This document shows positions 7,162 to 38,045 of a DNA stretch of 39,999 bases, one piece after another (position 1 is the stretch's first letter; each line of letters starts with the position of its first letter). This stretch comes from a virus: IMG/VR virus record IMGVR_UViG_3300009790_000001, positions 1 to 39,999 of that record. One strand, given 5' to 3'. The notes beneath the pieces were generated by a model. It made no database searches. It worked only from the letters and a program-made list of their open reading frames with translations, and was not told the origin of the DNA. A program made the translations under genes and the position numbers.

Positions 7162-7163
7162 TC

Positions 7164-8920: not shown

Positions 8921-8922
8921 CT

Positions 8923-9717: not shown

Positions 9718-9742
9718 TTATGTAACGATACTGCGTTACTAT
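9714..9742 (+). promoter_or_regulatory. Promoter-like site resembling the early rightward promoter
   Basis: TTGATT, an exact 17-base spacer, then TACTAT, overlapping the end of the primase gene. Like the site at 6600 it has GTAACG in the spacer and GTT/TTT before TACTAT. The predicted start would fall at about 9749, after the ribosome site of the next ORF, so it may be a regulator-binding site instead of a working promoter. Confidence 0.35.
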
Positions 9743-9751
9743 GGAGATATT

Positions 9752-9892
9752 ATGATTACTGAAAAAAAATGTGAAAACTGCAATGAAAAATTCCACGGAA
9801 CAAAAAGGGCTAGATTCTGTAGTACCAAGTGCAGAGTTGCCAATTATAGGCGGGAAAATGTGCAGCAAGTGCAAGAAAATAAAACCTCTTAA
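9752..9892 (+). CDS. 46-aa zinc-ribbon protein
   Basis: It reads MITEKKCENCNEKFHGTKRA followed by RFCSTKCRVANYRRENV. Two Cys pairs (CENC, CSTKC) 15 residues apart make a treble-clef/zinc-ribbon. A good GGAG site lies six bases before the ATG. The HNH gene starts inside its last 35 bases in another frame. Such mini zinc proteins occur near HNH genes in phages and may bind DNA or RNA; function unknown. It is a real gene by ribosome site and motif despite its length. Confidence 0.65.
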   Translation: MITEKKCENCNEKFHGTKRARFCSTKCRVANYRRENVQQVQENKTS

Positions 9893-10487
9893 CAATGATT
9901 TCTTTTTTACTTGCAATAACCCTAGAAATAAATACCCATTTAAATCAATGTGCAAGGATTGTTACGGCATCAAAGGTAAAAGAAAAAACCACCTTGGTAA
10001 CGGATTTAAAATATGCTCAAAGTGCGGAGTTAAAAAACCAGCAAGCAAAGAGTATTTTAACGCGCAGAGTAACAAAGTAGACGGATTAAGACCAGATTGT
10101 AAAGAGTGCACAAGGGAGGTAGGCAGAAAAATATACCACGCCCTACCAAGCGAGGAAAAGCTAGAGTACAGGAAGAGGTATTACTCAAAAAACAAAGAGA
10201 AAATTAAAATTTCTCAAAAGCAATGGAATAATGAAAACAAAGGGAAGGTTAGACATTACAAATCAAAGAGGAAATCAAGAGTAAAGAGAGCTACACCATC
10301 TTGGTTTGAAAAAGATTTAGTTGAAAAGGTTTATCAAGAGGCGTGCTCTAGAGGGTGGGAAGTTGACCACATAGTGCCAATAAAAAGCGAAATAGTTTGC
10401 GGCCTTCACTGCCACGACAATCTACAAATTTTAGAAAAAGAACTAAACGGAAGTAAAAGCAACAGTTACTGGCCTGATATGCCATAG
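9858..10487 (+). CDS. HNH endonuclease with zinc ribbons (209 aa)
   Basis: Two CxxC knuckle sets near the N-terminus (MCSKCKKIKP...CKDC; ICSKCGVKKP...CKEC), a lysine-rich helical linker (about 105-150), and the C-terminal HNH core WEVDHIVPIKSEIVCGLHCH followed by DNLQILEKELN. The start MCSKCKK at 9858 is preferred; a longer reading from 9771 lies within the zinc-ribbon gene and shows no domain. DHIVPI...GLHC.DNLQ is typical of HNH nucleases in mobile or packaging contexts. Between primase and helicase genes it is most likely a homing endonuclease. Confidence 0.8.
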   Translation: MCSKCKKIKPLNNDFFFTCNNPRNKYPFKSMCKDCYGIKGKRKNHLGNGFKICSKCGVKKPASKEYFNAQSNKVDGLRPDCKECTREVGRKIYHALPSEEKLEYRKRYYSKNKEKIKISQKQWNNENKGKVRHYKSKRKSRVKRATPSWFEKDLVEKVYQEACSRGWEVDHIVPIKSEIVCGLHCHDNLQILEKELNGSKSNSYWPDMP

Positions 10488-10496
10488 GAGATTATT

Positions 10497-12329
10497 TTGA
10501 TTAAATTAAGATATTACCAACAAGATGCGCATGAGGCGACGATAAGCCACTGCAGGAAGTCTGTCGAACCAGCAATGCATAACATGAGCGTGGGAGCCGG
10601 GAAAACCCTGAGTATAGCTTTCGACACTAAGCACGTAGTAGAGAAAGGGGGCAAGGTTCTAGTTCTCGCTAGGCAAGGTGAGCTTATTGAGCAAAATTCA
10701 CAAGACTATAGGCTTATAGGTGGCAAGTGTTCAATATTTAGCGCTTCGCTTAATCGAGCCTCTACTTTTTACCCTGCAGTGTTTGGCACCGAAGGCTCAG
10801 TGTGTAGAGCATTACAAGAGCATTTTAATTACCGCGTTGACTTTTTGGCCATTGATGAAGCCCACATGGTTAACTGGAAAGATGTTTTGTTGTGCCGTGA
10901 AGAGCATCAAAAAGGTTTCGACATATACGAAAACAAGGACGAAAACGGTAAAACTAAATACAGCCAATTTGCAATAATCATCACCCACTTTTATTCACTC
11001 AATCCAAAGCTGAGAATAATCGGTTACACCGGCTCACCATTTAGAGGCAGCGAAACCGTATACGGTGATTTTTGGAAACATGAGTTGAGCAACGTTTCAA
11101 CATACCAATTAATCAGTGAGGGATTCCTAGTTAATCCTGTTTTCGGGTTTGGCGATGAAAACCACCATTACGACTTAAAAGAGTTTGATAAAACCGAAGA
11201 AGGTGCCGGCGATTACACGCAAAAAGAGCTGCAAGCGATGGGTCGCAAGATAACCAAAGACAAGGATATGACACGCTCAATAATGGAAGAGGTTGTTTAC
11301 CGCACCAAGGACAGGCTAGGCGTCATGATTACATGCGCCAGTAAAAAACATTGTGAGCAGGTGGCGGAGTGCTTGCCCGATGGAGCATGGGGAATAGTTA
11401 CCGATTCTACCAGCACTAAAGAGCGCAGAAGAATATTAAATGACGCGAAAAGTGGCGATATAAAATACTTAATACAAATAGGCTGCTTGACGACTGGAAT
11501 CAATATCCCTCGCTTAGATACCAGCGTCATACTGAGGAAAATTGGCAGCTTAACGCTTGTAGTTCAGTTGCTTGGTCGCGTACTTAGAACTTTAAAGCCT
11601 GAGCAAATCGACGAAGGACTTGAAAAGCATGAAGCGCTCATTCTTGATTACACAGATACCCTGGAGATTATGGGCAACATATACGACGACCCGATAATTG
11701 ACAAAGCAACTGCAGCGAAAGCGAAGCAAAAGGGTGAGCCGATACCATGCCCTAAGTGCAACACAGAGAATAGTGAGTATGCAGTGCGCTGTATAGGGCA
11801 AGACAGTAATTCAATGGATGGCCGCTGTGAACACTTCTTTAAATCGACAATGTGCCTAAGCTGCGAAACGGAAAACGCACCAACCGCTCAAAATTGCCGA
11901 AACTGTGGCAAAGTTATGATTGACCCGAACAGCAAGTTAGTAAGAAAGGCTTACACTGATGCTGATTACAAGCCAGTTAGAAAAATGCACTACACAGAAA
12001 CCGGCGCCGGTAAGTTGTGCGTTTCGTATGAGTTAGAAAGCACTTACAAAAAGAATGGCATGGAATACCCCGAAGTGGCTAAAGAGTATTTTGATGTATG
12101 CAATGACGATAGAGTGCAACGTGCGCGTTGGTACAAGTTTATTGAACAACATATTCAAGGTAGGAATTTTAGAAACGGAATGGCACGAACAAGGACGGTT
12201 GCCGACGTAATAAGAAATAAGGCAATGTTTGATACGCCGGTTGAAATTACGCACCGGGTAAACGATAAAGGATTTAGCATCATAAACCGTAAAAAGTTTA
12301 GAACAGGAAGAGAAGAAAAAGCATCTTGA
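10497..12329 (+). CDS. SF2 DEAH-box helicase with C-terminal zinc ribbons (610 aa)
   Basis: Motif I is SVGAGKT (31-37), motif II DEAH (120-123), motif III-like GYTGSPFRG, and the C-terminal lobe carries QLLGRVLRTL (motif VI region). Two Cys4 ribbons follow (CPKC...C about 20 residues on; CLSC...CRNC). It likely unwinds or remodels DNA or RNA in replication or recombination, like the DEAD/DEAH proteins in many phage replication modules. A TTG start follows AGGAG by six bases. Its stop codon lies within a terminator hairpin, so transcription may pause before the recombination genes. Confidence 0.85.
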   Translation: MIKLRYYQQDAHEATISHCRKSVEPAMHNMSVGAGKTLSIAFDTKHVVEKGGKVLVLARQGELIEQNSQDYRLIGGKCSIFSASLNRASTFYPAVFGTEGSVCRALQEHFNYRVDFLAIDEAHMVNWKDVLLCREEHQKGFDIYENKDENGKTKYSQFAIIITHFYSLNPKLRIIGYTGSPFRGSETVYGDFWKHELSNVSTYQLISEGFLVNPVFGFGDENHHYDLKEFDKTEEGAGDYTQKELQAMGRKITKDKDMTRSIMEEVVYRTKDRLGVMITCASKKHCEQVAECLPDGAWGIVTDSTSTKERRRILNDAKSGDIKYLIQIGCLTTGINIPRLDTSVILRKIGSLTLVVQLLGRVLRTLKPEQIDEGLEKHEALILDYTDTLEIMGNIYDDPIIDKATAAKAKQKGEPIPCPKCNTENSEYAVRCIGQDSNSMDGRCEHFFKSTMCLSCETENAPTAQNCRNCGKVMIDPNSKLVRKAYTDADYKPVRKMHYTETGAGKLCVSYELESTYKKNGMEYPEVAKEYFDVCNDDRVQRARWYKFIEQHIQGRNFRNGMARTRTVADVIRNKAMFDTPVEITHRVNDKGFSIINRKKFRTGREEKAS

Positions 12330-12343
12330 CGGGTGCTTTTTTA
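12317..12343 (+). terminator. Terminator after the helicase gene
   Basis: Stem 12317-12325 with 12332-12340 (AAAAGCATC with GGTGCTTTT, one G-T pair), 6-nt loop, then further T. It overlaps the helicase stop codon and precedes the exonuclease leader. Probably partial, dividing replication from recombination genes. Confidence 0.75.
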
Positions 12344-12388
12344 TTGATTAAGATGGTTACACTTAATTAAAAGTGATGGAGATTGAAA

Positions 12389-13222
12389 GTGAAAAATCAA
12401 AAGTTGTTCATCAGCAACGACGAATACAGAAAAATGGAAGGCGTAGCAAACTCTGATTTGCTAATGGTTAAGAAAAACCCGTCTGATTACCCTTGGTCAA
12501 AAGTGGCACCGGTTGACAACTCAAAGGTTGCAACAAAGGACTTTGGCACCGCATTGCACACGGCACTGTTGGAGCCAGAGAAATTTGATGATGATGTTTT
12601 TGTTAGTAGCGTTGCAGGCAGAACAACAAAGACATTTATTAAAGAGGTTAACGACAACCCCGGCAAAGTTGTGCTAACAGAGGTTGAAGCTGAACAAATC
12701 AGAATCATGCAAGCCAGTGCACTTTGTCACCCTGCAATGAATTTATTTTTAACTGCAGAAGGCGATCGCGAATCATCAATATTTGTTTACGATGATGAGT
12801 TTGAAATCTGGCTTAAATGCCGACCTGATGTTGACGCATTTGAAAAGCATGGGTTTATCGGAGATTTAAAAAGCACCGCATCAATTAGCGACTGGCGCGA
12901 GCCGGTAGAGTGGAAAAACCCGTTATTTAAATTCGATTACGGGCATACTGCAGCGTTTTACCTTTACGCCATGTCAAAGTTTTACGGTAAACCTGTTGAT
13001 ACCTACAAATTTGGACTAAGCCAAAAAACAATAGAGCTTGGTAAGTATCCGCAAAGCGTATTCACAATAACACGCGGCGAATTAGAAACACTAGGTTTTT
13101 GGGGTGACATGCTTAATAACCTTGGTGAGTATTCGAGAAGATTAAAATCAAATGATTGGGTGTATGAAGAAGTTTTCCCAATTTTTGGCCGTGACGATAT
13201 GGAGGTAACATTCGATGACTAA
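12389..13222 (+). CDS. PD-(D/E)XK exonuclease, RecE/ExoVIII-like (277 aa)
   Basis: The conserved FGTALHTALLEP at about residues 52-63 is the family's helix motif. RPDVD (145-149) with GDLKST (158-163) gives the catalytic Asp...Asp-x-Lys, and YGHTAAFYLYAM follows as the C-terminal motif. It should degrade one strand from double-strand ends to make single-stranded DNA for annealing. The GTG at 12389 is chosen over the TTG at 12383 because GGAG lies seven bases before it. It overlaps the next gene by 8 bases; with resolvase and SSB downstream it forms a recombination module. No obvious Bet-type annealing protein is seen. Confidence 0.8.
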   Translation: MKNQKLFISNDEYRKMEGVANSDLLMVKKNPSDYPWSKVAPVDNSKVATKDFGTALHTALLEPEKFDDDVFVSSVAGRTTKTFIKEVNDNPGKVVLTEVEAEQIRIMQASALCHPAMNLFLTAEGDRESSIFVYDDEFEIWLKCRPDVDAFEKHGFIGDLKSTASISDWREPVEWKNPLFKFDYGHTAAFYLYAMSKFYGKPVDTYKFGLSQKTIELGKYPQSVFTITRGELETLGFWGDMLNNLGEYSRRLKSNDWVYEEVFPIFGRDDMEVTFDD

Positions 13223-13841
13223 CGATATTTCAAACCTTTCTGATACTGTGGTGCCAGAATCAGACCGCCTTAACGGTGACGATTTATTGCACGGTGAAAA
13301 GTTGATAACCATCACCGGTGTAGTTCGCTACCTTGACCCAAAAAGAAACCCTGCTTTCTATCTTAATTATGAAGGTGACAGTGGTAGACCGTTTAAGCCA
13401 TGCAAAACGCAAAGGCGCATTATCACTCAGTTATGGGGTGAAGATGGAAACCTATACATTGGTCGTCAATTGCGCTTATACAACGAAATGACAGTTGTTT
13501 ATGCGGGTAAAGAAACTGGAGGCTTACGTATTAACGGTATGACGGACATTCAAGGCACCGCGACCATTAAAGTGTCTGAGGCCCGCGGCAAGAAGAAAAC
13601 CTACACCGTAGAGAAGCTGGAAAAGCAGCAAAAACCACCTTACCCGGTTGAAAAGTTTAACGCGGCATTAGGTGCGATGGAGGAAAGCATTAAATCTGGC
13701 AAGTTCACGCCAGAGCAAGTTATTACTCGATGTGAGCAGACTGGCACCTTAACCGATAATCAACGTGAAACTATCAGGTCATTTGGCGAAGCTGATGAAC
13801 CGGCACCGCAAAACTCTGCAGAGGATTTTTTAGATGATTAA
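13215..13841 (+). CDS. Conserved-type recombination-module protein (208 aa)
   Basis: A beta-rich N-terminal half (LITITGVVRYLDPKRNPAFY, GRPFKPCKTQRRIITQLWG, LYIGRQLRLYNEMTVVYAGK, GGLRINGMTDI), then a charged linker and a C-terminal helical region (FTPEQVITRCEQTGTLTDNQ). From memory, proteins with the FEGD-G-PFKP-K...WG...YVGR-L pattern sit beside exonuclease genes in phages without assigned function. The beta half could be OB-like, consistent with single-strand binding or annealing; that is inference. It overlaps both neighbours. Confidence 0.65.
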   Translation: MTNDISNLSDTVVPESDRLNGDDLLHGEKLITITGVVRYLDPKRNPAFYLNYEGDSGRPFKPCKTQRRIITQLWGEDGNLYIGRQLRLYNEMTVVYAGKETGGLRINGMTDIQGTATIKVSEARGKKKTYTVEKLEKQQKPPYPVEKFNAALGAMEESIKSGKFTPEQVITRCEQTGTLTDNQRETIRSFGEADEPAPQNSAEDFLDD

Positions 13842-14283
13842 AATAATCGGCATCGACCCGGATATGAGAAAGCCGGGCATTTGTTTTTTTGATGAAGATG
13901 GTTTTGAGTTTGCAGCATGGGAAACATGCTGTCTGCTCAATGAAGTCGAAAGCCTTTCTGGCAGCCATATTTTCGCACTAGAAAACGTCAACGCAATAAA
14001 AACCATTTACGCCAAAAATCGCAAAGGCGGTCAAGCTGTGCAATCGCGCATAGCGCAAAATGTAGGAATGGTTAAAGCTGCGGCCACTATCATTCAAGAT
14101 TACATTGAACACCACGGCGGCAAGGTGATACTTGTGCCGCCTGGTATCGGCAAACAAACCAAGAATAACGCAAAGCTATTCGCAGAATTAACGGGCTACA
14201 CAGGACGCACAAACGAAGATACGCGAGACGCTTACTGGATAGCAAAATACGCATACAACCAAGTAAAAAACGGAGAAAAGTAA
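13834..14283 (+). CDS. RuvC-like Holliday junction resolvase (149 aa)
   Basis: It begins MIKIIGIDPDMRKPGICFFD: the IGIDPD strand with Asp8 is the RuvC signature. Glu50 in FALENVNAI and Asp132 in TRDAYWIAKYA give the other acidic metal ligands of the RNase H fold. Length is close to E. coli RuvC (173 aa). It should resolve branched DNA formed during phage recombination and before packaging. It overlaps the preceding gene by 8 bases and is two bases from SSB. Confidence 0.85.
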   Translation: MIKIIGIDPDMRKPGICFFDEDGFEFAAWETCCLLNEVESLSGSHIFALENVNAIKTIYAKNRKGGQAVQSRIAQNVGMVKAAATIIQDYIEHHGGKVILVPPGIGKQTKNNAKLFAELTGYTGRTNEDTRDAYWIAKYAYNQVKNGEK

Positions 14284-14284
14284 A

Positions 14285-14758
14285 ATGAATAACGCAACAT
14301 TTGCGGGCAATATCGGTCAAGATTGCAGAGTTAACAGCGTTAACGGTAATCAAGGCCAGATAACGGTGGTTAATTTCTCTCTTGCAGTAGATAAGAAAAA
14401 GAAAGACCAAAACGGCAACAAAGAAACTTTATGGGTTGATTGCGCTGTATGGGGTAAGCAGGCAGAGGCACTTCAGCAATACCTAGTTAAAGGGCAGAAG
14501 GTTTCTGTTAGCGGTTCGGTTGATGTTGATACCTTTACCAAAAATGACGGTCAAATAATCCCTAAGCTAAACCTAATGGTTAGGGATTTAACCTTGCAGG
14601 GTAGCGCAAGCCAGTCTCAAAACGGGAATTACCAGCAACAACAACAAGCGCAGGCAAGCCAGCAGCAGCCGCAAGCACAAGGGCAAAACGTTGCGCAAGG
14701 TTCAATGCAGCAACCACAACAAGGTCAAGCTAATTATAGCGACGATATACCTTTTTGA
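14285..14758 (+). CDS. ssb: Single-stranded DNA-binding protein
   Basis: An OB-fold core at residues 1-105 (NNATFAGNIGQDCRVNSVNG, VVNFSLAVDKKKK, LWVDCAVWGKQAEALQQYLV, KVSVSGSVDV). Then a Gln/Ala-rich disordered linker and the acidic tip DDIPF that recruits partner proteins in bacterial SSBs. The 157-aa size is normal. It protects single strands made by the helicase and exonuclease upstream. The linker DNA is a low-complexity CAA/CAG stretch (about 14630-14720). Confidence 0.92.
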   Translation: MNNATFAGNIGQDCRVNSVNGNQGQITVVNFSLAVDKKKKDQNGNKETLWVDCAVWGKQAEALQQYLVKGQKVSVSGSVDVDTFTKNDGQIIPKLNLMVRDLTLQGSASQSQNGNYQQQQQAQASQQQPQAQGQNVAQGSMQQPQQGQANYSDDIPF

Positions 14759-14773
14759 TTAATTAACTTAACA

Positions 14774-14790
14774 GGGCGCACCACGCGCCC
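14774..14790 (+). promoter_or_regulatory. GC-rich hairpin between SSB and the next gene
   Basis: GGGCGC/GCGCCC with a 5-nt loop, 12 bases before the next ATG and without a U-run. It may stabilise the SSB message end or slow the polymerase; a complete terminator is not seen. Confidence 0.5.
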
Positions 14791-14802
14791 AAGTGAGGGA
14801 AG

Positions 14803-15147
14803 ATGAAAAGAGTAACAGCATCAACAAAAGAGAAAGTGCTCAACTGGATGTTTGAGTGTGAAGACACTGGGATGAGCAGTGAGGCGCTTGCTTATTTCTT
14901 GGCAACCGGAGATAAAACTAGGCACGGACTATCTTACCCTAGAGACCCATCAGATTTTAATCGCTGCATGATTATGCTTGAATGGGTTCCTGAGCTAAAG
15001 GAAAGGCTGCCCCTTATAGCCAAAGAATGCCCTGTTTGGGCTGAGCTTGTGAAAAATTGGGAGTGGTTAGAGATTACTGTAAAAGCCGAATTTGAGACAG
15101 GTAGAGCGCCTATATCTTACAAGGCAATGAAGGCAATGGGGTGTTAA
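14803..15147 (+). CDS. Hypothetical 114-aa protein
   Basis: A helical soluble protein starting MKRVTASTKEKVLNWMFECE. It has a Trp-rich middle (SDFNRCMIMLEWVPELKERL, then VWAELVKNWEWLEITVKAEF) and ends SYKAMKAMGC. The PSDFNRC-x-x-LE pattern recurs, from memory, in small phage proteins of unknown role. A GAGGGAAG ribosome site precedes it, and it abuts the next gene. Confidence 0.65.
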   Translation: MKRVTASTKEKVLNWMFECEDTGMSSEALAYFLATGDKTRHGLSYPRDPSDFNRCMIMLEWVPELKERLPLIAKECPVWAELVKNWEWLEITVKAEFETGRAPISYKAMKAMGC

Positions 15148-15366
15148 ATGAAATACGAACTAACACGCGAGCAGCTAGAAGAAATGGTGCAGTGCATTGT
15201 TATAAATCACCTAGACGTAGATGAGGCTATGGAGTACGCCTTGTCAGTTTGCAGCGCTTTCACCTGTGACGATGCAGAGGTTGTATGGCCAGAAAAATCA
15301 GGCGATAACATGGAGTTTACGCACTTGACAGGCGAGGCGGTTAAAGCGGGGGTGTATGAGTCGTGA
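15148..15366 (+). CDS. Hypothetical 72-aa protein
   Basis: Acidic, helical, beginning MKYELTREQLEEMVQCIVIN, with clustered Cys (CIV, VCSAFTCDD). No membrane segment and no recognised family. It starts directly after the previous stop and overlaps a possible 38-aa ORF at its end. Confidence 0.6.
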   Translation: MKYELTREQLEEMVQCIVINHLDVDEAMEYALSVCSAFTCDDAEVVWPEKSGDNMEFTHLTGEAVKAGVYES

Positions 15367-15479
15367 AAATCCACAACTTAGCATTTATCATGGTTATGCA
15401 AGCGCTTTGTGTGCAGTGTAATTTCGTCTGTACGTATCGAATAACAAAGTCGTTTTACTGTTATCCGGCTGCAAACTAA
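15363..15479 (+). CDS. Possible 38-aa peptide
   Basis: A GTG overlapping the previous stop (GTGA) opens 38 codons starting MKIHNLAFIMVMQALCVQCN, slightly hydrophobic and Cys-rich, ending at a TAA followed by CTGGTC. Coupling favours a real gene, but codon evidence is thin. Confidence 0.3.
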   Translation: MKIHNLAFIMVMQALCVQCNFVCTYRITKSFYCYPAAN

Positions 15480-15545
15480 CTGGTCTAATCTGTCACACCC
15501 GCATTAGGTGTTACATTAGCAGCATAAATCAACGGGAGATAAGAA
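15476..15545 (+). promoter_or_regulatory. Promoter and leader for the small-gene block, related to the leader at 4215-4283
   Basis: A -35-like CTGTCA (15490-15495), 16-base spacer and TACATT (15512-15517) preceded by TGT, an extended -10. The element opens CTAACTGGTC and ends AACGGGAGATA as at 4215-4283 on the opposite strand. ACACCCGCATTA is repeated in the hairpin at 15809-15841. Confidence 0.55.
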
Positions 15546-15800
15546 ATGCAAGCAATTACACTTTCTGAATACGCCAAAAAGATTGGCGCAAAACTAAAGC
15601 CAACTACCTTGGCTGATATGCCTGTTCTTGATATTCAGGAGAATGACCAACCTGAAAACTTCCATGTAGGCATGGATAGCATAAAAACATGGCTTGAAGT
15701 TAGAGACCCTTCTGGAGGTGTTAACGGTAAAGGTTACTGGCCTTTTTATGTTCTTGATTGCGCGGATGGTGGGTTAAGAATCGCGTCAGGCGGTTACTAA
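15546..15800 (+). CDS. Hypothetical 84-aa protein
   Basis: Begins MQAITLSEYAKKIGAKLKPT, then a Gly-rich beta-like half (VNGKGYWPFYVLDCADGGLR) ending IASGGY. It follows a GGGAGAT site and a probable promoter. No family recognised. Confidence 0.6.
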   Translation: MQAITLSEYAKKIGAKLKPTTLADMPVLDIQENDQPENFHVGMDSIKTWLEVRDPSGGVNGKGYWPFYVLDCADGGLRIASGGY

Positions 15801-15808
15801 TAAGGCTA

Positions 15809-15841
15809 AACACCCGCATTATGTTGTATTGTGCGGGTGTT
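15809..15841 (+). promoter_or_regulatory. Perfect 10-bp hairpin, terminator-like or regulatory
   Basis: AACACCCGCA pairs with TGCGGGTGTT around a 13-nt loop. No U-run follows (GATTGATT), so it is a poor intrinsic terminator. The left arm and start of the loop resemble the promoter element at 15497-15515, suggesting duplication of a regulatory sequence. Confidence 0.55.
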
Positions 15842-15865
15842 GATTGATTGAAACGGAGATTGAGA

Positions 15866-16018
15866 ATGAAAATTTATTACGGTTTTTTCGAAGCTACATG
15901 GTTTAACAAGTATGGCAAACATGTTCGCGTAGAGGCATCAAGCAAAGCTGAGGCGCGCAAAAAGATGATGGCTATGGGTTGCGCCCAAGGCAGTCTAATG
16001 TTTATTACTGAGGCTTAG
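15866..16018 (+). CDS. Hypothetical 50-aa protein
   Basis: Reads MKIYYGFFEATWFNKYGKHV, then a helix RVEASSKAEARKKMMAMG and a short end. GGAGATTGAGA precedes the ATG, the recurring ribosome-site motif of this genome. A small alpha/beta protein of unknown function; the next gene starts two bases after its stop. Confidence 0.6.
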   Translation: MKIYYGFFEATWFNKYGKHVRVEASSKAEARKKMMAMGCAQGSLMFITEA

Positions 16019-16020
16019 TA

Positions 16021-16377
16021 ATGAACCAAAAACCAACCCGCCTAAAGCAGTTGTGTGAGGAAAGTCCGGCGCTTGGTAAAAAGCTAGCTGAGATTTTCCT
16101 AGCTGGCACAATTGGCGCTTACGACAGAAATAACGGCACCCCAATATTTCAAGGACAGATAAACGCGCATTACCACTGCAAGGATAAATACCTTACTCCG
16201 CATGAGCTAATGCGGGAAATGGCTAAAAGCGGTTTAGGTAACTGTGGCGTATCGGTTTCAATAGGCGATGTTCGCGGCTTGCTCTTTAGGGAGTGGAATC
16301 ACGGGCGAATGGAAAGAAAGCGACTTGATTGCAGCGTATCAGACAGAATGATGTGGGCTTACAAGTCAATTAAATAA
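16021..16377 (+). CDS. Hypothetical 118-aa protein
   Basis: Basic soluble protein beginning MNQKPTRLKQLCEESPALGK, with a helical N-terminal part, a mid region TPHELMREMAKSGLGNCGVS that could be a small helix-turn-helix-like unit, and RLDCSVSDRMMWAYKSIK at the end. No firm family; DNA binding is a guess. Confidence 0.6.
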   Translation: MNQKPTRLKQLCEESPALGKKLAEIFLAGTIGAYDRNNGTPIFQGQINAHYHCKDKYLTPHELMREMAKSGLGNCGVSVSIGDVRGLLFREWNHGRMERKRLDCSVSDRMMWAYKSIK

Positions 16378-16416
16378 ACGAGCAGCCTCGCAGTAGCTTA
16401 AAACGGAGAGTGAAAT

Positions 16417-16509
16417 ATGAGAAGCACAGACATTAACAGAAAGGCGCAACTCAAAACTGTACTGATTGCGGGTGCTACAATAGCGATACTGATGTATTGC
16501 GGGTATTAG
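16417..16509 (+). CDS. 30-aa single-span membrane peptide
   Basis: Reads MRSTDINRKAQLKTVLIAGA then TIAILMYCGY: a basic N-terminus and one hydrophobic helix at about residues 13-28. A GGAGAGTGAAAT ribosome site supports translation. Likely a small inner-membrane peptide of unknown role. Confidence 0.5.
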   Translation: MRSTDINRKAQLKTVLIAGATIAILMYCGY

Positions 16510-16515
16510 TTTCAC

Positions 16516-16590
16516 ACCGCCTAGAATTACAGACAATCCTGTCATAATCGGTTTGTTTAACATGGTCTTTGTCTAGGCGGTTTCTTTTTA
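16516..16590 (+). ncRNA. Structured element 1 closed by a 10-bp stem and U-rich tail
   Basis: ACCGCCTAGA (16516-16525) is perfectly complementary to TCTAGGCGGT (16572-16581), followed by TTCTTTTTA. The 46-nt interior holds a small GACA/TGTC hairpin (16532-16543). No ORF covers it. It could be a terminator with an elaborate loop or a small RNA ending at that terminator. Confidence 0.5.
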
Positions 16591-16591
16591 C

Positions 16592-16725
16592 ACTGGTTGC
16601 GGATTTCATTAACCAATAATCAAGCCCAATAGTCGCTTGATGATTAGCGCAACTCGTCAACGTTGTATGATTATGCGAATCGAAGTTATGCGTTGACCTT
16701 AACCGCAACCAGTTTTTTTATTTTT
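16592..16725 (+). ncRNA. Structured element 2: branched fold closed by an 11-bp stem and long U-run
   Basis: ACTGGTTGCGG (16592-16602) pairs perfectly with CCGCAACCAGT (16703-16713), followed by a run of T broken by one A. Inside are ATCAAGC/GCTTGAT (16619-16625 with 16635-16641) and GTCAACG/CGTTGAC (16656-16662 with 16691-16697), making a three-way junction of about 122 nt. It does not fit a tRNA. Together with element 1 it fills the only long gap in this operon. Confidence 0.55.
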
Positions 16726-16735
16726 GGAGATTGAT

Positions 16736-16939
16736 ATGTTAGCTGTAATCGGTTTTTTAGTTTGGATTTTATTTAACATTTGGCCCACATTGATGTGTGT
16801 CGCGATGGTTTTTATTCCTGTTAATGTTGGAGGGAGAAAGCTTGATTTTGGCGAGATTGTAGCATTTGTTCTCGCGTCTGCACTTTGCGGATTTGGTTGG
16901 TATTACTCACTTAATTCTGTAACCGTTAGCGTGGTATAG
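16736..16939 (+). CDS. 67-aa membrane protein
   Basis: The start MLAVIGFLVWILFNIWPTLM at 16736 is chosen because GGAGATTG lies just upstream; the ribosome site directly follows the U-run of element 2. Two transmembrane helices, about residues 2-27 and 39-55, are separated by a basic loop (VNVGGRKLDFGE). Early or middle membrane protein; role unknown. Confidence 0.6.
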   Translation: MLAVIGFLVWILFNIWPTLMCVAMVFIPVNVGGRKLDFGEIVAFVLASALCGFGWYYSLNSVTVSVV

Positions 16940-16948
16940 GAGAATAGC

Positions 16949-17083
16949 ATGCACTCAATAGTGACACGTTTCAGGTTTGGCGATAGCGTACAAGATATAG
17001 CGCAAGTGTTAAAGATAACCGTAGAGCAAGTTGTGGCGGTTTTACGTGAGAACAGCAAACAATGGGATGGGGTGAATAGATGA
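16949..17083 (+). CDS. 44-aa helix-turn-helix-like protein
   Basis: Reads MHSIVTRFRFGDSVQDIAQV followed by LKITVEQVVAVLRENSK. DSVQDIAQVLKITVEQVVAVLR has helix-turn-helix spacing (I-A-x-x-L-x-I-T-x-x-x-V). AGGAGAAT precedes the ATG and the stop overlaps the next start as ATGA. A minimal DNA-binding protein is likely. Confidence 0.5.
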   Translation: MHSIVTRFRFGDSVQDIAQVLKITVEQVVAVLRENSKQWDGVNR

Positions 17084-17505
17084 AATTCGTAAATGTAAAA
17101 GTTGGCGATACAGTTTACACAAAAACACTAACAACTATCGGTGGCTGGAATATGACAGGTAAAGTTTTCTTTATTCCTAGAAGGGTCACAAAAGTAACGC
17201 CTAAACAATTTGAAGTTGAAGGTCTGAGAACAAAGTTAAGAAAAGAAGATGGTAGCCCAGTTGGTGATGGTAGCTGGGTTTATATTGAAGGTGAGGATAT
17301 TAATCAATTTTATGGGTCAAAAGCCGAAACAGTAAAAGATGAGAGCAAAGAAGCTAACGATTACAGCAATTTGGTTAAAAAATATAACTCAGTATCAAGA
17401 ATGGCTAGAGAATTAAATCTTAAAGGTAATGAGTTAGATAAATATTCTGAGCAGATAAATTCAGCGTTTGAGGCGCTTGAAGCTATGACAAAGCCCCGCA
17501 AATAG
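17080..17505 (+). CDS. Hypothetical 141-aa protein, last gene of the rightward arm
   Basis: N-terminal beta-rich half (MKFVNVKVGDTVYTKTLTTI; VFFIPRRVTKVTPKQFEVEG) resembling a small SH3/KOW-like barrel. A helical half follows (NDYSNLVKKYNSVSRMAREL). Ends at the convergent terminator, with the stop codon in its stem. Function unknown. Confidence 0.65.
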   Translation: MKFVNVKVGDTVYTKTLTTIGGWNMTGKVFFIPRRVTKVTPKQFEVEGLRTKLRKEDGSPVGDGSWVYIEGEDINQFYGSKAETVKDESKEANDYSNLVKKYNSVSRMARELNLKGNELDKYSEQINSAFEALEAMTKPRK

Positions 17506-17512
17506 CGGGGTT
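17491..17512. terminator. Bidirectional terminator between converging early and late arms
   Basis: CCCCGC/GCGGGG (17494-17499 with 17505-17510), extended by G-T and A-T pairs, 5-nt loop, T-rich on the plus side. It lies exactly between the ends of the two convergent operons. Confidence 0.8.
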
Positions 17513-32294: not shown

Positions 32295-33113
32295 CTATTC
32301 AAATTTCGCACCGCCTAGGTGCTTATATTTACCTAACTCCGCATCGCCCACCGTTGGTTTAGGTCGTGTGGTTGGCTTTGGAGCATTCGATTGTTTAGGC
32401 TTTAGACCGCTGAGTTTAGGTCGCACTTTACGCTCTAGGTGTAACACCGCTTTTGCGATTGGCATTTGTGCTAATTCGTATGCCTCAACAGGGTTAGCCG
32501 CCAAATGCTTAGTGAATAATGGGCCATCTTCATCACCCAAAATCTCTATCGCTAATTCATCGCTTAAACCTGCTTGAGCAACTTGGTTAGCTGCCGTTTG
32601 TAGCTCTTCCGGTGTAATGCCGTAAGACTTCGCCCGTTCCGCGTATGTCGTAGCCTGTTGCTGTAATTGCTGCAACTGCTCTTGCTGTCTTGCCTGTTGC
32701 GCTTGTTGTTTCTGTGTCTGCGCGTTGCGTTGCTCATACTCCCACTGTGCGCGTTTTTGAATGGCTTCATCGCGCTCCTTAACCTTGGTTTCATAGTCAT
32801 CGTCAAACGCATCCGGCAAAGGTGGAATCTCTGGCGCCTTCTCTTGTTGCTGCGAATTATACTGTGCCAACTGCGCTTCAAGTTTTGCCGCCCTTTCTTC
32901 TGCCTCTTTCCATCTGCGGTGTTTCTCGTTGATGACCTGGTTAACCTTTTCCTGATTAATTCGGCGTTCGTCATCCTCGGTATTTTCTTCGTGTTCCGCT
33001 TCACTATCCGGTGCTAACTCGGACGGTTCATCTTGTTCAGACTCAACCTCTTCGACCTCTTCAACTTGGTCTTCCATAACTTCGTTTTCGATTTCGTTTT
33101 CTAGCTCACTCAT
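32295..33113 (-). CDS. Scaffolding protein (272 aa)
   Basis: Highly acidic N-terminus (ELENEIENEVMEDQVEEVEE), a Gln-rich coiled coil (about 75-165, for example QAQQARQQEQLQQLQQQATT), and a basic C-terminus (PKLSGLKPKQSNAPKPTTRP) that probably forms the coat-binding helix. This layout and the place between portal and coat match P22 gp8 (303 aa). It guides procapsid assembly and leaves before packaging. Confidence 0.85.
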   Translation of the reverse strand: MSELENEIENEVMEDQVEEVEEVESEQDEPSELAPDSEAEHEENTEDDERRINQEKVNQVINEKHRRWKEAEERAAKLEAQLAQYNSQQQEKAPEIPPLPDAFDDDYETKVKERDEAIQKRAQWEYEQRNAQTQKQQAQQARQQEQLQQLQQQATTYAERAKSYGITPEELQTAANQVAQAGLSDELAIEILGDEDGPLFTKHLAANPVEAYELAQMPIAKAVLHLERKVRPKLSGLKPKQSNAPKPTTRPKPTVGDAELGKYKHLGGAKFE

Positions 33114-33164
33114 GTTTTAACCCCATTACGGTATGCAAACCCGCGAAAAATGTCGCGTACATTA

Positions 33165-33193
33165 TTGACATTGTAGCGAGATAGGTTTATTAA
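33165..33193 (+). promoter_or_regulatory. Strong sigma70-type promoter of the antisense cassette
   Basis: A perfect TTGACA (33165-33170), 17-base spacer and TATTAA (33188-33193), facing rightward between scaffold and cassette. An AATGTC/GACATT inverted pair covers the -35, possibly an operator. Confidence 0.8.
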
Positions 33194-33229
33194 TGGTGTA
33201 TGCATAATTTACAGATGAAAGGATTGCGC

Positions 33230-33391
33230 ATGAGCAAACCAAACAAACACACGCAAAAGATTCACGCCAAAGGCTACAAGGTGCAGGATTTTTTAGACTA
33301 TTGGGGCATTACACGTCGCACATACGACAACTACTGTGCAAATGAAAAGCTGCACGACAAGTTACATAAGATGATTGAGGGGATGAAATGA
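33230..33391 (+). CDS. Antisense cassette gene 1: 53-aa helix-turn-helix-like protein
   Basis: The start MSKPNKHTQKIHAKGYKVQD at 33230 is chosen for the AAAGGA site six bases upstream and because the ATG at 33200 coincides with the predicted transcript start. VQDFLDYWGITRRTYDNYCA has helix-turn-helix spacing with a basic recognition helix. It may regulate the cassette or the neighbouring late genes. Start of a chain of six overlapping plus-strand genes. Confidence 0.65.
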   Translation: MSKPNKHTQKIHAKGYKVQDFLDYWGITRRTYDNYCANEKLHDKLHKMIEGMK

Positions 33392-33474
33392 CAACTAGCA
33401 AAAAGAAAGGCGGAAAGAAGAAAGGTAACAAGGAAGGCTTTGAAGGCTATTTACGTAAAAGATTTGGGGAATGA
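33388..33474 (+). CDS. Antisense cassette gene 2: 28-aa basic peptide
   Basis: MTTSKKKGGKKKGNKEG plus a short aromatic tail FEGYLRKRFGE; the ATG overlaps the previous stop (ATGA). Lysine-rich, possibly nucleic-acid binding. Its 3' end overlaps gene 3 in another frame, so either could be the expressed product. Confidence 0.45.
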   Translation: MTTSKKKGGKKKGNKEGFEGYLRKRFGE

Positions 33475-33631
33475 AATTAACGAACAAACACTAAAGCAAG
33501 AGAAGAAAAAGCACGAGCGCGTGTGTAAGATTCGCGATGCAGCCACAAGAGTAAAGGCCGATACATTAGCAGAGAAACGCGCCGCTGCTGAGTTTAACAA
33601 GTTGATGAAAGATTATGGGGTGGTGTTGTGA
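33440..33631 (+). CDS. Antisense cassette gene 3: 63-aa charged helical protein
   Basis: A TTG start behind AGGAAGG (five bases) reads MKAIYVKDLGNEINEQTLKQ, then a charged helix EKKKHERVCKIRDAATRVKA. No ATG is available in frame. Predicted coiled coil. It overlaps gene 2 by 35 bases and gene 4 by GTGA. Confidence 0.5.
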   Translation: MKAIYVKDLGNEINEQTLKQEKKKHERVCKIRDAATRVKADTLAEKRAAAEFNKLMKDYGVVL

Positions 33632-33891
33632 GTAACTTAGAGCATAACGCAATCAAGATGATTGAAAAGCAATTAGAGGCATCCATAAAGGACGCGATAA
33701 TAAAAGAGCTGGAAAATAAGCTAGTCGATGAATTTAGAAAGAAGGCAAGAGAAGAAATTGTCAAGGCGGCGGAAAGCGTCACACTCAAAGGGGTTGAATC
33801 AATGACTGACTTTCTAAGGTATCGCGATGAACTTGTTGTTTACTTGCGCGTCAATGACGAAATAAATCAGATTTCTAAGGATGCGAAATGA
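33628..33891 (+). CDS. Antisense cassette gene 4: 87-aa helical protein
   Basis: GTG start overlapping the previous TGA. Acidic/basic amphipathic helices (MIEKQLEASIKDAIIKELEN; EFRKKAREEIVKAAESVTLK) and a C-terminal domain MTDFLRYRDELVVYLRVNDE. Possibly a membrane-surface or oligomeric adaptor protein; no family recognised. Confidence 0.6.
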   Translation: MSNLEHNAIKMIEKQLEASIKDAIIKELENKLVDEFRKKAREEIVKAAESVTLKGVESMTDFLRYRDELVVYLRVNDEINQISKDAK

Positions 33892-34118
33892 AAAAATCTA
33901 AACTAACCACCGCCGTAAAATGCAGGCAACTAGATATTGCGGCGATAAAAGAGAATCTAGTAAACAACACCGTTGACCTGTCTAAGCAAGTGTTAGCCGC
34001 AATGGAAGGCAGAGATGAGGATAAACTTGTTGAGTTAGTGGAGCGCTGTGGGCACGACACTATACAAGGTGTTATTAATGAGTTGGTTGAAATTGGATTG
34101 TTGAAGGTGAAGAAATGA
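33888..34118 (+). CDS. Antisense cassette gene 5: 76-aa hypothetical protein
   Basis: Begins MKKSKLTTAVKCRQLDIAAI and continues as acidic helices (MEGRDEDKLVELVERCGHDT; VINELVEIGLLKVKK). The ATG overlaps the previous stop as ATGA. It looks like a compact all-helical domain; function unknown. Confidence 0.6.
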   Translation: MKKSKLTTAVKCRQLDIAAIKENLVNNTVDLSKQVLAAMEGRDEDKLVELVERCGHDTIQGVINELVEIGLLKVKK

Positions 34119-34423
34119 AGCCGCATGTTAAAGTAGTCAAAGGAAAATATCTTTGGCTAACCATAGGAAAGGGAGGTTATCGCATGCCACTTGAGGAATA
34201 CTATTTCAGAAAGTCAAGAGTTTTTAAAAACAGTCCTTTGGGGCGTAGATATTCCTTTAACGTAAATATGAATGAGGAAGGCAATATACACGGCTTAGTT
34301 CCGAATATAACTACAACTCCTGATAATAACGAAAGTTGGCAGCTAAACCGCTCATTGATAACCTTAGCGTTTGGTGTTGGAATTATTATTGGTCATTTCG
34401 GCATGAAGTGGATAGGGGCTTAA
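34115..34423 (+). CDS. Antisense cassette gene 6: tail-anchored membrane protein (102 aa)
   Basis: A soluble basic domain (MKPHVKVVKGKYLWLTIGKG; FRKSRVFKNSPLGRRYSFNV) precedes one C-terminal membrane helix at about 80-97 (LITLAFGVGIIIGHFG). The ATG overlaps gene 5's TGA. Its stop lies in the hairpin shared with the portal stop. A C-tail anchor fits an exclusion or membrane-targeting role; that is inference. Confidence 0.6.
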   Translation: MKPHVKVVKGKYLWLTIGKGGYRMPLEEYYFRKSRVFKNSPLGRRYSFNVNMNEEGNIHGLVPNITTTPDNNESWQLNRSLITLAFGVGIIIGHFGMKWIGA

Positions 34424-34432
34424 CTAGCCCCT
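34414..34432. terminator. Bidirectional hairpin over two convergent stop codons
   Basis: AGGGGCT-TAACT-AGCCCCT, a perfect 7-bp stem holding the stop codons of both the antisense cassette and the portal gene. U-runs are weak on both sides, so readthrough of the late transcript into scaffold is possible. Confidence 0.65.
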
Positions 34433-36588
34433 GTTATATCCTGTGCGGTTTCGTCGTAAGCTTTAGCCGCGTTATCATTTACCACAACATCAGCGCCCAT
34501 CGCATCCTTAATCGACTTCAATGCACTTGCTAATTGCGCCACTTCCTGTGCCTGCGCTTTCTGCTGTTCTAGCATCATGCGCATTAGTTCCATTTGTTGT
34601 GCTGCCTCGGTCTTAGCTGCATCTTGGTCAAGTTTCTGCTGCCCTTGGTTGACCTTGGCAAGGTTTAGCGCTGTCTCAGATTGCAGTTTCTCATTCTGGC
34701 TTGCGTACTTGCCCTGAATGTCTGCCGCTCTTAGTTGTAACTCTGATTGCTTGTTCTGCTGCGCTAACATATCAGCTTGTGCTTTCATCATTTCAGCTTG
34801 TGCAAGTACCATGTTAGGGTCTGGTTGCTGTTGATTAGCCTGTGCCGCTGCTTGTGCCGCCGCTAATTCTTCCTCACTCATCTGGTCTTGCGGGATAAGT
34901 CCGGCATTAAGCATCTGTGCTCGTGCTCGGTCTGCTAGTGCATCGAAGCCAGGTGCGTCGATATTCCTAAACCACGTGTCGCGCCCTAGCTCCATAACAG
35001 TAGGGTCAATAGCTGCTATTCGTGCAAATTCTTCTGCTGCTTGTTCTCGCTTGCTTCGGTAGTTCGCACCAATCTCGCACACAACATCATACTCACCCAC
35101 TGATAAATCATTAAGCGTTACAAGTTGCCCTGTCTGACTGTCTAACACTTGACGGTTTATATCCGTCATTGTGCTCTCACCATCTTCGCCAAGTATACGA
35201 ACTTGCCTTGTGCTGTCATACACACGAGGAATGGCGTTAACGGTTACACGTCCGGCATAAAGCAACATCGCTTCGATAGCCTCAAACCACTTGTCTATGC
35301 CATTGGTGCTTTGGTCAACTTGCTTCTCAATTGCTACGCCTGATTGCAGATTAGCGTTATTGCCTAGCGATGCGGCGAATAGCCCTGCTGCTTGGTTAAT
35401 GCCTCCATTGGTCTGCTCTATTAGTGTTTGCAGTTGCGGGTTAAGTATTGCGCCGCCTTGGTATGTTGGTGGTGGCTGACTCTGAACAAAGTTATAGAAT
35501 TGAACAGGGTCAAGGTTGGTGTTCATGCCCTGCAATTGTCGCTCATTACCTTTGGCTTGCTCTCGCGTCATCCAGTATTTAGGTCGAGGCGCTAATGCTG
35601 TTTCAATAACCTGCTGGCTAAACGCATAGTTATGTACGCGCTGAATGTCCATTAGTTTCTCAACGACACCACGCCAAATGCGTTTACCCTCTGATACATG
35701 GTAGTTGCCATAGCCTACACAGATAGGTAGAAAATCAAACGGGGTTTCCTCTGGCTCTGTTATGTAACCGTCATTATCAAAGTAACGCATATAGAAACGT
35801 GATGATTTGCGCACACGCCTATCTACCTCGACAATTTTAGCCCTAGCCAACTCATCAGCGACCATCTGAAAATCTTCGTTATTCTCGTACACCTTACCAT
35901 CAGACATTTTGATAATTTCAATGTCTTTAGTCTTACGGTAGTAACAACGACCAACGGTAACAAAGTCGGGCTTCTGTACGTAAACACTATCTAGCCGATT
36001 ACTATCAAGTGATACTGGCGTTTTTTCGTCGTTACCGCGTAAACGGTCGTACTCTTTACGGCTAATGTATTCAAATACTACACCCCAATCTGCATCGCTA
36101 TGGTCTCGCTCATAACTTGCCGGGTCAATCCAAACGCGGTCTACTGCATCGTGTATAGGCTTCCAAAATATATCTTGGTCAAACGCATCGCCGTCAACGT
36201 AATCCGTCACAATCTCAAACGCACCGATACCACCCTCAACGATAGAGCGCCCGATGCTTTTTAAGCTGCTATTGAATCGGCTGATATTCCTGATGTTGCG
36301 TAACATGCCGTCAAGTGTCTTGGCCACTTCTTTTGTTGAGTCACCACCAGCGGGCTTAGCCACTAATGCAAAGTCGCGGTTATTAATCTCACCGCATATC
36401 TGGTCTACGATGGGGTTAACGCGGTCATCGGTATAACGCGGTCTACCTTTCATCCGTGAGATAATTTCAGGCTCCCACTGTCCATCGCGCTTGTGAACAA
36501 AGTGCGTCGCTTCTCGTGAATGTTCGCGCTGGTCTTCGTCTGCGTCTTGAGCTTTCTTTAAATCGGTTTTTATATCTTTAAAATCCAT
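34420..36588 (-). CDS. Portal protein, P22 gp1 family (722 aa)
   Basis: The ATG at 36588 (MDFKDIKTDLKKAQDADEDQ) is preferred over a TTG five codons upstream overlapping terminase. RPRYTDDRVNPIVDQICGEI, RSIVEGGIGAFEIVTDYV and DRVWIDPASYERDHSDADWG are P22-type portal features; length equals P22 gp1 (725). The C-terminal 150 residues are a Gln/Ala-rich helical barrel (QAEMMKAQADMLAQQNKQSE). Twelve copies form the DNA entry ring bound by terminase and the gp4-like protein. Confidence 0.9.
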   Translation of the reverse strand: MDFKDIKTDLKKAQDADEDQREHSREATHFVHKRDGQWEPEIISRMKGRPRYTDDRVNPIVDQICGEINNRDFALVAKPAGGDSTKEVAKTLDGMLRNIRNISRFNSSLKSIGRSIVEGGIGAFEIVTDYVDGDAFDQDIFWKPIHDAVDRVWIDPASYERDHSDADWGVVFEYISRKEYDRLRGNDEKTPVSLDSNRLDSVYVQKPDFVTVGRCYYRKTKDIEIIKMSDGKVYENNEDFQMVADELARAKIVEVDRRVRKSSRFYMRYFDNDGYITEPEETPFDFLPICVGYGNYHVSEGKRIWRGVVEKLMDIQRVHNYAFSQQVIETALAPRPKYWMTREQAKGNERQLQGMNTNLDPVQFYNFVQSQPPPTYQGGAILNPQLQTLIEQTNGGINQAAGLFAASLGNNANLQSGVAIEKQVDQSTNGIDKWFEAIEAMLLYAGRVTVNAIPRVYDSTRQVRILGEDGESTMTDINRQVLDSQTGQLVTLNDLSVGEYDVVCEIGANYRSKREQAAEEFARIAAIDPTVMELGRDTWFRNIDAPGFDALADRARAQMLNAGLIPQDQMSEEELAAAQAAAQANQQQPDPNMVLAQAEMMKAQADMLAQQNKQSELQLRAADIQGKYASQNEKLQSETALNLAKVNQGQQKLDQDAAKTEAAQQMELMRMMLEQQKAQAQEVAQLASALKSIKDAMGADVVVNDNAAKAYDETAQDITGAS

Positions 36589-36593
36589 CGCTA

Positions 36594-38045
36594 CTAATCC
36601 CAAAGTGATTCAAATTCGAATGGTGTAGATTCGGTTGTCATTGCTGGCATTTCTTCGCCCATTGCTAAACAGTCAGCCATGCCGGGCGATTCAATGTCGT
36701 AACGGTCTTTCATTTCTTTCTTAGACATTAACTGAATCTTACCTGTCGGGTTCTGCTTGCGCGGTATGCGGCAACACTCTGACCGCAGTTTATCAAGTAA
36801 TGGTATGTCGCTACAAATGCTTATTAATTCGTCGGGATGTATATACTCGCCCTTCTCAACGGCTCTGTATGTCTTTTCAAAACGGTCTGCTAATCTCATG
36901 TAGTATTGCGCTCGCTTATTGTAGAAGGTCTCGCCATTAGTCTTAGGCTGGTCTTTATTGCCTAGCATGTACAGACCATCATACAACGCATCTTTATCAT
37001 CAACGGCATTACTCCCACGGTACATGCGTAAATCACACTTAATACCTGTGAAAGACTCACTCACTTGTCTGCGTAATAGCGCACCCATTCCGTCACCATC
37101 CCACACAAACAAATCAGAGTTGTTATTAATCGCAACCTCTGTTGCTTTATCGCAAGCCTCGTTTCCGTCTTTTGCATCTATCTCGCCTACATAGTGATAG
37201 ACCATGCCTTTTCGCACAGCAATACCTTTACTATCCTCGCCCTCGTCTGCGGGGTCAAAGCTGGTCACTACTGCGCCGCTAGGTTTAAAGCCAAGCTTCT
37301 TGTGTGCATCTATCGCGGCATCAAACCACGCTTTCTTGATGATTGCATTATCCACGGTTTCGTTGTACTCCCCACCCCATATATGGTCGTATTCTTCACG
37401 GCTTAGGTTTTCGAGGTCATCAAGGCGCTCTTGCTCTAGCTCGATAGGAAACCACGGATTATCCGTATAATTAACCTCAACCACCATTACAAGGTCATCT
37501 TCATAATAGCCTGTTTCAGCCAGTTTAGTTTCAGCACGTTTCAGATACTTCTTAGCGATAGCATCTTGGCGACTGTTACGGTTCATCGTAATCCATATCT
37601 CAGGTGGGGTTTCTGATTGCACTGCTCCACTACGGACAGACGGTGTTAATACTTTAAGGCTTTTCTCTGACACGCTTTCGCCTTCCTCAATCCATAAACG
37701 GTTAACGCCTGCCAATGATTTAAGTGAAGTGATATTACGAGCTAAGCCTTTGTAGAATATCTCACCGCCCGTAGATGAATTGATATTGTTGTTAGTCACA
37801 GACATGCCGCCAACATTTAGGCGGTCAATCTCTTGTTTTAGCGTTTCGTGTACCGAGTCATCAATTGAATTCTGAAACTCACGTGTACAGCATATGCGCT
37901 CACCATGGTCACACAGCATGAGCATGATATCACCTACACCCATAGACTTGCCGGAGCCGCGCCCACCTACTGCGATTTTTATTCGCTTAGGCTTGGACAA
38001 TAGCCAAGCTATCTTGTCGGGTATGCGTAGCTGAATATCACTCAT
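36594..38045 (-). CDS. Terminase large subunit, PBSX/Terminase_3 type (483 aa)
   Basis: Walker A GGRGSGKS (27-34), Walker B LWIEEGE (117-123), coupling segment WITMNRNS. The C-terminal nuclease has acidic residues in SFDPADEG (Asp264) and FVWDGDG (Asp316, Asp318). The length is typical. It pumps DNA into the procapsid and cuts the concatemer; its type and the circular genome favour headful packaging. It overlaps the small subunit by 8 bases (ATGAGTGA). Confidence 0.92.
   Translation of the reverse strand: MSDIQLRIPDKIAWLLSKPKRIKIAVGGRGSGKSMGVGDIMLMLCDHGERICCTREFQNSIDDSVHETLKQEIDRLNVGGMSVTNNNINSSTGGEIFYKGLARNITSLKSLAGVNRLWIEEGESVSEKSLKVLTPSVRSGAVQSETPPEIWITMNRNSRQDAIAKKYLKRAETKLAETGYYEDDLVMVVEVNYTDNPWFPIELEQERLDDLENLSREEYDHIWGGEYNETVDNAIIKKAWFDAAIDAHKKLGFKPSGAVVTSFDPADEGEDSKGIAVRKGMVYHYVGEIDAKDGNEACDKATEVAINNNSDLFVWDGDGMGALLRRQVSESFTGIKCDLRMYRGSNAVDDKDALYDGLYMLGNKDQPKTNGETFYNKRAQYYMRLADRFEKTYRAVEKGEYIHPDELISICSDIPLLDKLRSECCRIPRKQNPTGKIQLMSKKEMKDRYDIESPGMADCLAMGEEMPAMTTESTPFEFESLWD

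Follow-up and report, generated by a model that had tools for sequence, protein, structure and literature searches.

The antisense cassette and its surroundings

The window analysed here is a stretch of 39,999 bases of a virus record, in which the late genes are encoded on the minus strand (39176 to 17515) and the early and replication genes on the plus strand (7146 to 17505). A strong two-way terminator-like hairpin (17492-17512) lies between these two converging blocks. In the late operon, a P22-like portal gene (34420-36603, minus strand), whose product is 88% identical to the portal of Pseudoalteromonas phage H6/1 and 27% to Sf6 gene 3, is followed by the scaffold gene (32295-33113, minus strand; 79% to the H6/1 scaffold, gp09). 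The 1.3 kb between the two genes are occupied by six plus-strand open reading frames, g1 to g6, which an earlier sequence-only reading had taken for a cassette of six small genes. Chained reading frames cover 1188 of the 1231 bases of this gap on the plus strand, versus 597 on the minus strand, and not one of 2000 dinucleotide shuffles of the gap (mean coverage 244, maximum 804) matched the observed value.

Further support for genuine genes comes from the pattern of substitutions. The codon decay in relatives that would have spoken against these frames was looked for and not found; instead, the Nei-Gojobori dN/dS values all fall between 0.03 and 0.22 (0.03-0.22 for g1 among four phages, 0.08 for g3 against gp05 of H6/1 and 0.10-0.15 for g5 against the relatives L001 and L002), the portal giving 0.05-0.07 for comparison. 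This set comprises g1, g3 and g5, since g2, g4 and g6 are without a full-length homologue, and some of the dS values are near saturation. Judged from these alignments, g1, g3 and g5 are under purifying selection, and the possibility that the six frames are spurious was discarded on the basis of the shuffle coverage and the dN/dS ratios. The GC content drops to 0.405 across the cassette versus 0.470 and 0.480 in its flanks, and both skews change sign over it.

The proposed chaining of the genes through ATGA and GTGA overlaps is found at four of the five junctions (ATGA at g1/g2, g4/g5 and g5/g6, GTGA at g3/g4) and breaks down at g2/g3, where the ATG at 33472 lies in the wrong frame and opens only the peptide MKLTNKH*. 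Because of this, and because the ATG that starts the homologous gp05 of H6/1 is an ATT at 33476 in the window, with a GGGG a few bases upstream, g3 would start either at this rare ATT or at the TTG at 33464. Despite the changed start, the gene is otherwise intact and under selection. A scan of the locus with Rfam gave nothing above threshold, and no tRNA was found.

The products of the cassette

The first gene, g1 (33230-33391, plus strand), encodes a 53-aa protein of helix-turn-helix (HTH) type, with homologues in L001, L002, L012, L036, L037 and several Vibrio phages; an alternative ATG at 33200 is not conserved. The AlphaFold2 model (pLDDT 86) has four helices, two of which (residues 18-25 and 29-37) are predicted to form the HTH. 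Most Foldseek matches were HTH regulators (HipB, EnrR, SinR, XRE-type), none of them significant, so the fold class rests on the type of match and not on its score. The best viral match was a 50-aa unnamed protein (TM 0.77-0.81), and the L002 copy of g1 touches the Pfam family HTH_7 with a weak match. Altogether, these models and matches lend weak support to an HTH fold. A sequence search of the PDB with g1 and g5 returned chance matches only, and scans of bacterial genome contigs confirmed no relative of g1.

The remaining genes, all on the plus strand, encode equally small proteins. A lysine-rich peptide of 28 aa with a net charge of +7 is encoded by g2 (33388-33474), which overlaps g1 and has no homologue that we could find, followed by g3 (33476-33631, or from the TTG at 33464), which would yield a charged helical protein of about 51 aa, 75-76% identical to gp05 of H6/1. 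An 87-aa protein without homologue or family above cut-off corresponds to g4 (33628-33891), and a 76-aa protein, modelled as all-helical (three helices; AlphaFold2 pLDDT 85) and 57% identical to its counterparts in L001 and L002, to g5 (33888-34118). The last gene, g6 (34115-34423), encodes a basic protein of 102 aa with a C-terminal hydrophobic segment (Kyte-Doolittle maximum 1.55 at residue 82), and its N-terminal MKPHVKVVKG block recurs in the last reading frame of the L012 cassette (shuffle p 0.0005). In line with the sequence-only reading, which recognised none of the products, none of the cassette proteins reached a family of known function in Pfam, PHROGs, NCBIfam or PADLOC.

Promoter, scaffold leader and end hairpin

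Upstream of g1 there is a sigma70-type promoter sequence, TTGACA-17-TATTAA (33165-33193, plus strand), which agrees with the near-consensus promoter described in the sequence-only reading. The window holds two sites with at most two mismatches from TTGACA-N17-TATAAT, this one included, where 5.2 are expected by chance. Because the motif alone is not above chance, its weight lies in its conservation in L001, L002 and L012: the TTGACA and the -10 are retained in both L001 and L002, and the promoter block TTGACATTGTAGNGANANNGGNTTAT is carried, among viral contigs, by L012 as the sole other case. The H6/1 cassette is devoid of a TTGACA promoter. On these sequence grounds, the cassette of the window appears to have a promoter of its own. 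An inverted-repeat operator at this promoter was not significant (p 0.54), and of the nine regions tested for operator palindromes, that of L002 alone yielded a significant case, which has 11-bp arms, was reached in 3 of 1000 shuffles and extends from the -35/-10 spacer to the start of g1.

The 5′ boundary of the cassette is the leader of the scaffold gene (33114-33162, minus strand), which contains a small CGCGA..TCGCG hairpin and is common to the window, H6/1, L001 and L002. Most pairs of these four phages are 94-95% identical by blastn over 65-68 bases of leader, and the window and L001 are 81% identical over a longer stretch; the leader was not found in L012. It is more conserved than the scaffold protein itself. 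The stability of its hairpin is not above that of shuffled sequences. The leader is probably a cis element, acting as a late promoter or in translational control. Its role as a recurring late-promoter motif was considered and rejected, as its 20-mer occurs once in the window.

At the other boundary, a hairpin AGGGGC-TTAACTA-GCCCCT (34414-34432, plus strand; z -3.0 on both strands) holds in its loop, at TTAA, the overlapping stop codons of g6 and the portal gene, so that the hairpin that had been described as shared with the portal stop is indeed there. It is a stable structure, and since no strong T-run follows it, it may be a weak terminator. Together with the leader of about 65 bases, this GGGGC..GCCCC hairpin forms a conserved pair of edges in the close phages. 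In L002 it stays with the cassette, though the end of the portal gene has been replaced.

Occupied and empty junctions among relatives

Comparison of the portal/scaffold junction among related phages reveals antisense cassettes in the three closest ones: H6/1 (portal 88%), L001 (79%) and L002 (78%). The contents differ among the window, H6/1 (gp05-gp08), L001 and L002 in a mosaic way, the parts in common with the window being g1 and g5 in both L001 and L002, and g3 in H6/1. The latter phage keeps a cassette and has no g1, and its gp07 looks, by eye, like another small HTH protein. In L002 (1833-2546), the C-terminus of the portal is replaced, and a sense gene of 237 aa is added between portal and cassette.

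Portal and scaffold are adjacent, with no insert, in seven more distant relatives (portal identity 26-39%): the closed junctions measure about 115 bases in the Vibrio phages 234P9 and 340E47.2, about 93 in FGH, about 83 in Shewanella phage ZP9, about 39 in Vibrio phage 1.211.A and about 14 in Sf6 and phiSG1. In ctkAd229, Sortsne, PAE2, L015, L016 and L019, sense genes are found at this position instead. The presence of antisense, empty and sense-gene junctions among relatives therefore indicates that the portal/scaffold site accepts inserts often.

Two copies of g1, in L002 (2796-2945) and in L043, are divergent at the N-terminus and identical or near-identical in the C-terminal KMIEGMK block and the downstream overlap. 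These two sequences suggest that recombination may join a following gene to the cassette at the end of g1. L043 was rejected as an independent case of the cassette, which lies there at a contig end beside an inverted scaffold fragment, probably an assembly fold.

Cassettes of the g1 family in unlike head lineages

A similar arrangement occurs in phages with very different heads. In L012, whose portal is 24% identical to that of the window and whose scaffold is not alignable with it, the sequence TTGACATTGTAGTGATAACGGCTTATAAC (window counterpart TTGACATTGTAGCGAGATAGGTTTATTAA) lies antisense between portal and scaffold. Its g1 is 89% identical to g1 of the window in amino acids and 84% in nucleotides, other small genes accompany it, and a GGGGC-TTAAC-GCCCC hairpin sits at the portal stop, in the same place as in the window. 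In the annotated phages that come closest to L012 by portal (50% and 48.5%), the junction holds no insert. These data show an exchange between phages of distant lineages; the dS of g1 between the window and L012 is about 1.6, and therefore the exchange is not recent.

In a further lineage (C), L036 and L037 carry g1 and a Zn-ribbon gene antisense downstream of the portal. Their heads have a portal similar to a “head to tail connecting protein” and a head operon of the GroES type, and two distant relatives of these phages have no such cassette. The Zn-ribbon protein adjoining g1 in L036 resembles Lar, with a weak match (E 0.04).

A further insertion is found in Vibrio breoganii phage 1.131.O, with a portal of phrog_145, where an antisense unit lies between the portal and the head-morphogenesis genes. 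It is composed of a gene of 269 aa (NVP1131O_04, phrog_5931) and an unannotated g1 homologue, 37% identical to g1 of the window and 58% to the homologue of 13VT501A. The exact empty site is present in its siblings 1.165.O, 1.148.O and 1.082.O (portal 97-99%; 97% for the first two), in which the flanking genes are one or two bases apart, so that the insert of 1.131.O is clean and measures about 1.15 kb. Among the early genes of 1.165.O there is a sense copy of the same unit, including its upstream region (77.6% nucleotide identity). In L029 (3687-4496), the phrog_5931 protein shows a weak match to DndB and a DGQHRL motif, and this partner of g1 is found at different places in V. breoganii phages.

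Genes of the g1 family also occur in sense accessory runs in L038-L040, 1.054.O, 13VT501A, 1.052.A and 1.122.A, and for this reason the apparent tie of g1 to the antisense site, as drawn from the phages found here, is a repeated and not an exclusive one. In 13VT501A, a Lar-family gene comes shortly after the g1 homologue.

A probable multi-gene antisense moron and its alternatives

The host phage is a marine, P22-like phage, apparently a virulent one. Of the two roles put forward in the sequence-only reading, that of a moron-type cassette is well supported by the closed junctions, the conserved promoter, the low GC content, the mosaic contents, the purifying selection and the sister empty site in Vibrio. 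The functions proposed for it in that reading, superinfection exclusion or host defence, are candidate ones. How such a moron would operate is a matter of conjecture, for which we infer early timing, autorepression by g1 and an anti-defence role. Once the DNA enters the cell, the sigma70 RNA polymerase of the host would start at 33165-33193 and produce one short mRNA, whose coupled translation would yield six small, fast-swapping proteins. These proteins could be directed at the host and most probably at its defences, a role suggested by the type of locus and by two weak links to Lar-type antirestriction (13VT501A and L036). Repression would then fall to the protein g1, which would bind to the promoter of the cassette and silence it, and the burst would be finished before the late polymerases traverse the cassette head-on, and the hairpin at the portal stop would limit read-through into the portal gene. 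We consider it rather probable that the cassette is such a sigma70-driven early anti-host burst with g1 as its self-shut-off, inserted antisense in the portal/scaffold junction of a P22-like phage.

A different role for g1 could be played within the same moron. If g1 were an effector binding host DNA or a host regulator, the cassette would be a constitutive host-takeover unit active throughout infection. Most cassette promoters are indeed without an operator palindrome, the H6/1 cassette does without g1, and the gene is the first of the cassette in the window and L037 and the second in L001, L012, L036 and 1.131.O. However, the small HTH proteins of such morons, the Aca families, repress wherever they have been tested (PMC9410906), and continuous transcription running head-on into the late operon would be a burden on it, which makes this reading a credible one that we nevertheless judge unlikely. 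The second of the roles originally put forward, an antisense regulator whose rightward transcript or polymerase traffic would tune the portal to scaffold ratio or delay late expression, is quite improbable. In its favour, the position and the antisense orientation recur in several lineages, and the ant moron of P22 alters the number of late polymerases that reach the tailspike gene (PMC2629481). Polymerase collision with late transcription is possible. Nonetheless, the transcript (about 33200 to about 34435) could pair with the spacer in the late mRNA and, of the portal gene, with the stop codon only, starting some 85 bases from the scaffold start codon (33113), and it is because it covers no coding sequence of portal or scaffold that this role is disfavoured. 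The purifying selection on the proteins, the wide variation in contents and length of the cassettes and the many relatives devoid of them also argue against it.

The strong, constitutive-looking promoter and the hydrophobic C-terminal segment of g6 would suit a superinfection-exclusion or toxin-antitoxin unit expressed from the prophage of a temperate phage. This is very improbable, as the integrase search, which covered tyrosine integrases, found none in the genomes of the window, L001, L012 and H6/1, the proteins scanned include no lysogeny genes, and the bacterial genomes yielded no confirmed g1 relative. Finally, the location of g1-g6 in the head operon might suggest late accessory genes that aid head assembly and are merely inverted. 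This idea is barely credible: the late transcript of the minus strand cannot encode g1-g6, the promoter resembles an ordinary sigma70 one, and a g1 unit of the same kind is found among the early genes of Vibrio phage 1.165.O.

For the preferred reading, that of an early multi-gene moron, the arrangement poses the question of an early-type operon tolerated head-on inside a late operon. In a broader and tentative extension of it, which we would place on the unlikely side, g1 would mark an undescribed class of exchangeable antisense cassettes located directly downstream of the portal in unrelated heads, each of them with an HTH switch of its own that would permit an early anti-defence operon to persist head-on within a late one. 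If true, g1 would be an Aca-like marker leading to new anti-defence genes; in any case, the g1 sequence can be used to collect such cassettes, whose other genes encode plausible anti-defence proteins.

Comparison with known systems

The proposed mechanism is modelled on two precedents. In anti-CRISPR (acr-aca) operons, inverted repeats within the core promoter are the binding sites of Aca proteins, which act as repressors (PMC9410906), and in Mu-like Pseudomonas phages genes of this kind are gathered in accessory regions where a single accessory ORF recurs (PMC4378225). The cassette resembles these morons in its small variable genes accompanied by a recurring small gene of putative HTH type, with their own promoter and a lower GC content, as an accessory region inside a phage core genome (PMC4378225, PMC9410906). 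In contrast, the window is without an operator palindrome, the cassette runs opposite to the head operon, and no homologue of a known acr or aca gene was detected in it with NCBIfam, PADLOC or Pfam. Since the palindrome test is negative for the window and positive for L002 only, we do not claim membership in the acr-aca family. By analogy, the cassette could work like an acr-aca operon, through self-repression by its HTH protein, a likeness to which we would give slightly less than even credit.

Among the phages compared, the P22-like head operon of Shewanella phage ZP9 likewise encloses a series of small antisense genes, together with a terminator; unlike in the window, the series is placed after a gp4-like gene and not at the portal, and no g1 homologue was found. 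In ZP9 (L020, 11113-12687), the run comprises five small antisense genes and ends with GCCCCGATTAAGGGGC plus a T-run, a terminator core that is the same as that of the 1.131.O cassette. The unit of 1.131.O shares with that of the window a g1-family gene, the antisense orientation and the position directly downstream of the portal, in a clean insertion with a known empty site, whereas its head genes are unrelated (phrog_145 portal), its partner gene is the 269-aa phrog_5931 and its terminator is a good one.

Morons as such are not new, and P22-like phages carry one within their late operon: the ant moron, in which the mnt, arc, ant, sar and sieA region lies between genes 16 and 9 (PMC2629481). 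Both this region and the cassette are multi-gene, fast-varying units within a late operon that late polymerases have to cross, and the independent expression and small repressors of the ant moron (PMC2629481) would have their counterparts in the promoter and the putative HTH protein of the cassette. They differ in that the cassette lies at the portal/scaffold junction instead of between genes 16 and 9, and is wholly antisense; its proteins have no Pfam or PHROGs match to mnt, arc, ant or sieA. The literature search found no account of an antisense insert at the portal/scaffold junction. The novelty lies in a second moron site, in an insert that is multi-gene and antisense throughout, and in one and the same small gene of HTH type that recurs at the corresponding position in phages whose heads are very different or unrelated. 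The report on phage epsilon34 described no moron at any other place in the morphogenetic cluster and raised the question of whether the site between genes 16 and 9 alone tolerates insertion (PMC2629481); the portal/scaffold junction is a second moron site in the P22-like morphogenetic cluster.
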